Source: Bacteroidales bacterium
GTDB taxonomy: Bacteria > Bacteroidota > Bacteroidia > Bacteroidales > GCA-2748055
Reading direction: 5' to 3'
Assembly (NCBI GenBank): GCA_029210585.1
Contig: JARGFP010000008.1
Span: 82,057 to 146,056 of the forward strand
DNA length: 64,000 bases
Made by a program: the position numbers and the translations under genes. This document shows positions 25,766 to 28,488 of the stretch, piece by piece; the first letter of the stretch is position 1; each line of letters starts with the position of its first letter. The notes beneath the pieces are model-generated. The model saw only the letters and a program-made list of their open reading frames with translations. It had not been told where the DNA came from and did not search any database.

Positions 25766-26629
25766 TCATTTCCTCAATTGTTGTTCCGCACGATAGGAAG
25801 AACGTACGAGCGGACTGCTTTCCACGTGCCTGAAGCCTTTCAGCAGTGCAATTCCTTTGTATTCCGCAAATTTTTCAGGTACAATATACTCCTCCACCGG
25901 CAGGTGGCCGAGCGTGGGTTGCAGGTACTGGCCGATGGTTAACACCTCGCATCCAACCTCCAGCAGGTCATCCATGGTTGCAATGATCTCGGGTTCGGTC
26001 TCCCCGAGTCCAAGCATGATCCCTGATTTTGAGATCAGTCCTGAACTGCTGATTTGACGTATTACCTCCAGGCTGGTTGCATATTTTGCGCGGCTCCTGA
26101 TCTGCGGAGTAAGTCTTCTTACAGTCTCGAGGTTATGGGAGATCACTTCTGGCGCTGCATCGATCACCTGGCGGATCAGTTCCGGTCTCCCGTCCATGTC
26201 CGGGATCAGTGTTTCCATGGTCAGTTCCGGCAGTTCGGACTTCAGCACACGTATGGTTTCGGCCCAGTACCCGGCGCCCTTGTCATCCAGGTCATCGCGG
26301 TCCACCGAAGTAATCACCGCATGTTTGATGTTCATTTTTCGAATGGATTCGGCAAGTCTCCGTGGCTCATCCGGATCCGGCGGCAGCGGCCTGCCGGTAT
26401 GGACGGCACAGAATTTACATGAGCGGGTACAGGTATCACCGAGGATCATGAAAGTGGCTGTTCCTTCTGCCCAGCATTCGCCAATATTCGGACAGTTTCC
26501 ACTGGTGCAGATGGTATGAAGCTTGTTTTTTTCCACCACATCTTTCACCTGCATATAATTCTTCCCTCCCGGCATCTGCATGCGCATCCAGTGCGGAAGC
26601 CGCTTTCTTCCCTTCAGGTCATGACCCAT
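25766..26629 (-). CDS. lipA: Lipoyl synthase
   Basis: ORF 287 aa; CTSGNCPNIGECW, FMILGDTCTRSCKFCAV. Confidence 0.97.
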   Translation of the reverse strand: MGHDLKGRKRLPHWMRMQMPGGKNYMQVKDVVEKNKLHTICTSGNCPNIGECWAEGTATFMILGDTCTRSCKFCAVHTGRPLPPDPDEPRRLAESIRKMNIKHAVITSVDRDDLDDKGAGYWAETIRVLKSELPELTMETLIPDMDGRPELIRQVIDAAPEVISHNLETVRRLTPQIRSRAKYATSLEVIRQISSSGLISKSGIMLGLGETEPEIIATMDDLLEVGCEVLTIGQYLQPTLGHLPVEEYIVPEKFAEYKGIALLKGFRHVESSPLVRSSYRAEQQLRK

Positions 26630-26712: not shown

Positions 26713-27174
26713 TCACCCCTCTGCTCTGACGCCGGCCACTTCAGCGACGGTGATGTCTGCCGGGGCGGAACCAAATCTTTTTCTCACATAATTCAGGACA
26801 TCCGCTACCTCCTGGTTGCTGAGATGCGGCAATGGAGCCATGATGGTATGGTAAATTTCCCCGTTGACCTCGATTTCCTCGTCCATTCCATGCAAAACGA
26901 TGCTGATGAGGGTTGCATTGTCCCCATTGACCCACTCGGTGTCGTGCAGCGGAGGAAACATGCCGGGAACGCCATTGCCATCGGCCTGGTGACAAACCAG
27001 GCAATGCTGTTTGTATAGGGATTCACCCGGATGACTGGAAAGGTCATCAGCAGCATCAAGTATTGCCGTTTTTTCCGGAAGCGGACTTTTGTCCATGGTA
27101 TTTGTTTTTTCACTGCTTCCCCCGCAGGAAACCAGCAGTACAAAGGCAACTGAAAGTACAATCAATAATTTCAT
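26713..27174 (-). CDS. Class I cytochrome c lipoprotein
   Basis: Lipoprotein N-terminus VLLVSCGGS; LYKQHCLVCHQADGNGVPGMFPPL heme motif. Confidence 0.88.
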   Translation of the reverse strand: MKLLIVLSVAFVLLVSCGGSSEKTNTMDKSPLPEKTAILDAADDLSSHPGESLYKQHCLVCHQADGNGVPGMFPPLHDTEWVNGDNATLISIVLHGMDEEIEVNGEIYHTIMAPLPHLSNQEVADVLNYVRKRFGSAPADITVAEVAGVRAEG

Positions 27175-27266
27175 CCGTTTGTTTTTAAATATAATAATGG
27201 TCATAAGGAACCCAGTCTCACTTCAATTGTTCCATTTGTCAAAATTAAGTTTTTCTTAGGATTACG

Positions 27267-27625
27267 CTAGCCGGAATAGAAAATTTTCCAGATACGTCCT
27301 TGTCTTGAATCGTTCACATACAATGATCCATCCGGTCCAACCGCCAGACCGCAGGGACGATACACTGCATCACCCGGGTTTTCCACTGTCTCCTGTTGTG
27401 AAAACCCATTGGCGAACACTTCCCAATCGCCTGAAGGCAATGCACCTTCGAAAGGTACAAAAACCACATTATAGCCTTTTTGCTGCTCCGGCGCCCGGTT
27501 CCAGGATCCGTGAAATGCGATGAATGCACCATCCCTGTATTTTGCGGGAAATTGTTCCGCATGATAAAAAAGGATTGGGTACCAATGATTATCCTGCTGC
27601 TGAAGAAGTGGTTGATTCCGGCGAC
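27267..27625 (-). pseudogene. PQQ-dependent sugar/sorbosone dehydrogenase, C-terminal remnant
   Basis: EQFPAKYRDGAFIAFHGSWNRAPEQQKGYNVVFVPFEGALPSGDWEVFANGF...GDAVYRPCGLAVGPDGSLYVNDSRQGRIWKI; N-terminal beta-propeller blades absent. Confidence 0.8.
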
Positions 27626-27630
27626 CCTGC

Positions 27631-27750
27631 CTTCCGGCAGACAGGAAATGGTATATGCGAATCCTGGTCAGTGAAATCGTTTTACAATACATGAAAAGCC
27701 TGGATCTTTCGTATCCTGAACTTTCCCTGAGCGGTGAAAAGGAAGTATAA
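27631..27750 (+). pseudogene. Polyphosphate kinase 2 (PPK2)-family C-terminal remnant
   Basis: Open frame without start: LPADRKWYMRILVSEIVLQYMKSLDLSYPELSLSGEKEV*, matches PPK2 tail pattern (PADxKWYRN..V...I...L..L...YP). Confidence 0.68.
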
Positions 27751-27840
27751 GAGATAAGGGCTGCGCTGAAAAGGAAGATTCAAGGGGATAAATAATATCT
27801 TTGTGACGGAAATGAATCACACGAAATTTTCACCTTTACT

Positions 27841-28488
27841 ATGAACACTACCTCCCTCCTGCTGAATTTTGCCAAGCGCGTCCATGCCCTGGCTGAAACA
27901 GGTCAGCATTTCTCAGAATCGGATTACGACATGGACCGGTACACGGAACTGGAACAGATCGCACTGGAAATGATCTCCCTGGTTACCCAAAATGATATTT
28001 CACTTGTCTCCTCAGGCATCCAGGAAAAAAACGGCTACCGGACGCCCAAAGTGGATGTCCGTGCCGTGGTATTCAACCAGGAAAAACAAATCCTGATGGT
28101 GAGGGAGCAGATCGACGGCAACTGGTCGCTTCCAGGTGGTTGGGCCGACGTGGGATTCACGCCAGCTGAGATTGCAGTAAAGGAAACAAGGGAAGAGGCA
28201 GGCGTGAAAGTGCAGCCGGTCAGGCTGCTGGCAATCTTCGACAAAAAATGTCATAACCACCCCCCGGATGTGCATTATGCATATAAGATTTTCATTGAAT
28301 GCAGCATCCTCGATGCAACGATACGCACTGGTTATGAAACCACGGATGCCGGCTTTTTCAGCCTTGAAGCACTCCCGCCCCTTTCCACCCCCCGAAATAC
28401 ACTTGAACAGGTTGAAATGATGTTCCGCTTCCGGGACAACCAATTGCGCTGGCCGCATATCGACCTGGAGTGTAATCATGGATTGTAA
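27841..28488 (+). CDS. NUDIX hydrolase with N-terminal NUDIX_N-type domain (ADP-ribose pyrophosphatase-like)
   Basis: GGWADVGFTPAEIAVKETREEAGVKV = Nudix box. Confidence 0.92.
   Translation: MNTTSLLLNFAKRVHALAETGQHFSESDYDMDRYTELEQIALEMISLVTQNDISLVSSGIQEKNGYRTPKVDVRAVVFNQEKQILMVREQIDGNWSLPGGWADVGFTPAEIAVKETREEAGVKVQPVRLLAIFDKKCHNHPPDVHYAYKIFIECSILDATIRTGYETTDAGFFSLEALPPLSTPRNTLEQVEMMFRFRDNQLRWPHIDLECNHGL

Follow-up and report, generated by a model that had tools for sequence, protein, structure and literature searches.

The junction between a dehydrogenase fragment and a polyphosphate kinase (ppk2) fragment in the studied genome (G000) is very probably a deletion scar, at which about 2.0 kb of a divergent dehydrogenase/ppk2 gene pair would have been lost. 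The analyzed stretch of DNA (64 kb, referred to as the window) belongs to a draft assembly of 4.6 Mb, which consists of 116 contigs and was rated 99.13% complete. For comparison, the genomes of three congeners (G001, G002 and G003) and of a further member of the same order (G039) were considered. Coordinates of the features at the junction and in its surroundings are summarized in Table 1.

Table 1. Features at the junction and on its flanks (window coordinates).
Feature	Position	Strand	Remarks
lipA	25766..26629	-	left flank of the syntenic block; 82% amino acid identity to G003
c-type cytochrome gene, intact	26713..27204	-	directly downstream of the dehydrogenase remnant; Pfam Cytochrom_C, E 2.9e-11
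GSDH-like (glucose/sorbosone dehydrogenase-like) remnant	27267..27572	-	corresponds to the C-terminal 101 residues of the G003 protein (422 aa) and includes the stop codon
Junction sequence	27573..27630	.	58 bp standing where G003 has 2,045 bp
Inverted repeat CTGCC-TTCC-GGCAG	27627..27640	.	judged incidental
ppk2 remnant	27631..27750	+	begins at the equivalent of G003 residue 246 and runs to the premature in-frame TAA; TIGR03709 match
ppk2 frame past the premature TAA	27751..27795	+	EIRAALKRKIQGDK plus stop; alignable with the C-terminal end of the intact orthologue
NUDIX hydrolase gene	27841..28488	+	right flank; 69% amino acid identity to G003

Two gene tails and the intact pair of a congener

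On the minus strand, an open reading frame of 141 aa extends over positions 27267–27692, within which homology to the dehydrogenase is confined to the stretch between 27572 and the stop codon. The rest of this frame covers the junction sequence and then runs antisense to the PPK2 tail. Full-length dehydrogenase orthologues of 422–423 aa are encoded in G001, G003 and G039, and the 141-aa frame aligned to the C-terminus of the proteins from these three related genomes with 62–73% identity (E down to 6e-56). The fragment itself shares 78% amino acid identity with the G003 protein over 101 residues and 74% with that of G001, and neither a stop codon nor a frameshift was found within it in these alignments. 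For the full-length G003 dehydrogenase, a Pfam match to GSDH (PF07995) was obtained at residues 141–340 (E 8e-9) in addition to an NHL repeat, whereas the fragment alone gave no PF07995 match in the Pfam search. Among solved structures, the orthologues weakly matched the extracellular PQQ-dependent sugar dehydrogenase 6jt5 (E 1.3e-6). As judged from these sequence matches, the designation GSDH-like appears fairly well justified, with PQQ-dependent sugar oxidation being putative at most.

On the plus strand, the translated segment LPADRKWYMRILVSEIV...LDLSYPELSLSGEKEV matched the NCBIfam model TIGR03709 (PPK2) at positions 226–262 of 264 (E 1.2e-7), and a profile search of the G000 genome also retrieved this tail (E 1.0e-5). 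No Pfam match was obtained for the PPK2 tail, which is too short for Pfam alone. The remnant is 67% identical to the G003 protein over 39 codons and is interrupted by an in-frame TAA at 27748–27750, located 14 codons before the native end of ppk2, the next stop codon following at 27793–27795. In tblastn, residues 245–294 of the G003 PPK2 aligned to positions 27628–27777, running through the TAA, and behind this codon EIRAALKRKIQGDK of the window aligns with EIKSELNKKAGK of G003. A nonsense codon at this distance from the native end might be tolerable in an intact gene. The earlier note had interpreted the two fragments as the C-termini of a minus-strand dehydrogenase and a plus-strand PPK2 with their 5' ends facing each other, and had proposed a PPK2 profile search and an alignment to full-length families as checks. 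The TIGR03709 match and the alignments, in which both fragments appear as C-terminal tails, bear this interpretation out.

An intact divergent pair encoding a PPK2 of 297 aa and a dehydrogenase of 422 aa is present at the same spot in G003 (record CAKZNC010000023.1, an uncultured Bacteroidetes assembly). In this genome, hydE-hydF-lyase-NUDIX-ppk2 on one strand face away from dehydrogenase-cytochrome c-lipA-lipB on the other, and the gene order of the window is the same on both flanks (lipB, lipA and cytochrome c on one side; NUDIX, lyase, hydF and hydE on the other). Based on this shared order, the intact divergent pair that had been sought in relatives was located in G003. Compared with this locus, the window is devoid of 2,045 bp and contains 58 bp in their place, the breakpoints being approximate and not exact to the base, since the nearest relative is only about 70–75% identical in DNA. 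The missing sequence comprises some 320 N-terminal residues of the dehydrogenase, among them the signal region, an intergenic stretch of 350 bp and residues 1–245 of PPK2 with the P-loop; the absence of both 5' halves and of the divergent intergenic region, deduced from the window alone in the earlier note, thus becomes visible by comparison with the intact pair and its flanks of the same gene order. When the G000 assembly was searched with the full G003 dehydrogenase, only residues 300–421 matched, at the scar, and the N-terminal part was found nowhere else. Likewise, PPK2 profiles detected no other PPK2 in G000, the sole further match being partial (E 0.14).

The G003 PPK2 scored 335 bits against TIGR03709 (cut-off 247) and could be aligned almost from end to end with the class III PPK2 of Cytophaga hutchinsonii (PDB 6AN9/6ANG; E 5e-84). 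Its motifs DAAGK (residues 70–74) and FHRSYYE (residues 124–130) are both located in the part missing from the window. A glutamate following Walker B constitutes the signature of class III PPK2 enzymes (PMC8776046). In the G003 protein, this glutamate corresponds to E130, which is aligned with C. hutchinsonii position 137. Walker A, Walker B and the class III glutamate are all absent from the PPK2 tail in the window, as they belong to the lost part.

Junction sequence and assembly

The two remnants had been described as meeting within about 20 bp. This distance needed correction, as the clear homologies end at 27572 and begin at 27631, leaving a gap of 58 bp. In total, 19 shuffle tests were run on the origin of this filler, and those considering it as a piece of the dehydrogenase gene, of ppk2, of G003 intergenic DNA or of an esterase gene of G001 were unconvincing. 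The lowest p values, 0.02–0.03 for G003 intergenic DNA and 0.05 for extending the dehydrogenase match, do not convince among 19 tests. The latter value refers to a gapped tblastn alignment that extends the dehydrogenase match to 27644, but this extension is no better than shuffles. Furthermore, a copy of some other part of the genome was rejected as the source of the filler, the 29-nt core of the filler being unique in G000 at up to 3 mismatches, and the insertion and subsequent excision of a mobile element was discarded because supporting repeats were not found near the join.

The small palindrome to which attention had been drawn at the junction is indeed present, once. However, hairpins with a 5-bp stem and a 4-nt loop occur 73 times in the 64-kb window, so that a palindrome of this size would be met by chance at any place and its location beside the junction calls for no special cause. 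Given this number of comparable hairpins, the palindrome was rejected as a recombination or insertion site, and no role is assigned to it.

Two truncated genes could also be brought together by a misassembly or strain chimera, i.e., by a wrong join at 27573–27630 in the sequence of an organism that keeps the intact pair. The assembly is a draft in 116 contigs, and the dehydrogenase fragment evolves as part of an intact gene would. Moreover, truncation is the only lesion of this fragment, and an assembly join would give the same, which is a point against the scar. However, a wrong join would usually leave the missing 2 kb on another contig, and they are found nowhere else in the assembly. A search at the join revealed no repeat whose length could have led an assembler astray, the core of the junction occurs only once in the genome, and the flanks carry the syntenic neighbours that would be expected on either side. 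A nonsense codon, which a wrong join would not create, is an additional and independent lesion of the ppk2 tail. Considering the nonsense codon, the absence of the missing parts elsewhere and the lack of a long repeat at the join, misassembly is very unlikely, and the deletion would have occurred in the organism itself.

The variable lipA-NUDIX interval and the course of the proposed deletion

The interval between lipA and the NUDIX gene differs among related genomes. In G001, an esterase-like gene (Pfam GCE_fung, E 1.6e-31) is located 14 bp from NUDIX, where G003 has ppk2, and no ppk2 was found in the lipA-NUDIX interval of this genome. In G002 (L149) and G008 (L150), the interval harbours a trpB-like (tryptophan synthase beta chain) gene, named by eye from its sequence, and in a number of genomes from a different genus within the family (L132–L137) lipA adjoins NUDIX with no gene between them. 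These comparisons characterize the interval as a variable site with apparent gain and loss of genes, of which the window represents one more state.

As a separate observation, a 40-aa remnant of a glucuronyl-esterase-like gene (78% identity) is located between ppk2 and the dehydrogenase gene in G003 (L046:5747–5866), and an intact copy of this esterase is present in G001 (L027:4832–6157). This esterase is another gene undergoing decay at this site.

For the proposed deletion, an ancestor is assumed in which, as in G003, the minus strand would have encoded the GSDH-like dehydrogenase and cytochrome c and the plus strand a class III PPK2. One or more deletions would have removed about 2.0 kb, namely ~320 dehydrogenase codons, the divergent promoter region with its contents and 245 ppk2 codons (1–245) including the Walker motifs, and would have left the 58 bp of junction sequence. 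Both remnants would represent non-functional tails. The ppk2 tail would have gained its nonsense codon as well, either before or after the deletion, and the dehydrogenase tail is so far without visible decay. Within this deletion reading, a scar formed in several steps, for example by separate decay of each gene and of the esterase gene between them, is conceivable but rather unlikely: the lipA-NUDIX interval is unstable in relatives, and the filler together with the nonsense codon suggests more than one event, but a single deletion with filler explains both truncations more simply, and the sequence requires no more than that.

Regarding the age of the proposed deletion, the dehydrogenase fragment differs from G003 by 17%, 15% and 50% at codon positions 1, 2 and 3, respectively, and its pN relative to G003 amounts to 0.146, compared with 0.170 for the intact G003–G001 pair. 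No relaxation is visible in the fragment, where changes on the window lineage are few (14 base changes over 99 codons). Since the pN of the fragment is no larger than that of the intact pair and neither a frameshift nor a stop codon is present, the deletion appears recent when set against the divergence of these species, an age that is relative only and provides no date, as synonymous sites are near saturation.

The same codon-position pattern, which resembles that of functional genes, as well as a reading frame open over 141 codons would also be expected if the 141-aa frame encoded a functional short protein, in which the dehydrogenase C-terminus was re-started from antisense ppk2 and junction DNA. 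However, such a protein would retain only one quarter of the dehydrogenase sequence, without the signal region of the N-terminus, G003, G001 and G039 all possess forms of 422–423 aa, and a recent deletion explains the codon pattern equally well. A functional product of this kind is therefore considered extremely improbable, and in genome annotation the 141-aa frame belongs under pseudogene fragment.

Concerning the neighbouring cytochrome gene, 80 related dehydrogenase loci from GTDB genomes were considered, among them 76 with enough downstream sequence. A CxxCH frame of at least 80 codons was detected within 1 kb after the dehydrogenase in 49 of these 76 loci. This conserved adjacency, seen in many Bacteroidota, supports the former partnership that the earlier note had deemed plausible, and the cytochrome c was probably the operon partner of the dehydrogenase. 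The cytochrome gene of the window evolves like its counterparts, with pN/pS values of 0.29–0.36 versus relatives and of 0.31 between relatives. Its former promoter region, upstream of the dehydrogenase gene, would have been removed with the deletion.

Polyphosphate kinases and comparison with known systems

In G000, PPK1 is intact, and the profile search of this one draft genome revealed no intact PPK2 of any class, only the tail at the scar. G001, G002 and G003 each possess another PPK2 elsewhere in the genome. The second PPK2 of G001, the only one tested, is of the TIGR03707 type, and the gene beside it has only a 34% match in G000. The species represented by the window may have recently lost every PPK2, i.e., the class III enzyme as well as the separate copy of its congeners, and have kept PPK1; this proposal is given an even chance. 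If true, the loss of every PPK2 with PPK1 kept would represent a lineage-specific shift in polyphosphate use. The scar would gain in importance only if polyphosphate metabolism in this lineage had changed through the disappearance of both PPK2 genes.

The locus is interpreted as ordinary gene decay by deletion and not as a new kind of element, and would illustrate clearly how genes are lost by deletion at a variable site of the chromosome, where the intact arrangement of a relative can be compared. With the class III PPK2 of C. hutchinsonii (6AN9/6ANG) the window has the C-terminal tail in common, whereas residues 1–245 with the P-loop and the Walker B region are missing and a premature stop codon is present. 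With the pair of GSDH-like dehydrogenase and c-type cytochrome known from Bacteroidota it shares the C-terminal 101 residues and the adjacent cytochrome gene, but three quarters of the dehydrogenase are gone and the cytochrome gene is without its partner. Finally, the locus resembles bacterial deletion pseudogenes in that a breakpoint connects two truncated genes, one of the remnants contains a nonsense codon, and a syntenic relative has intact orthologues. It differs from them in nothing of substance except that both genes of a divergent pair, together with the promoter region between them, would have been affected at once.
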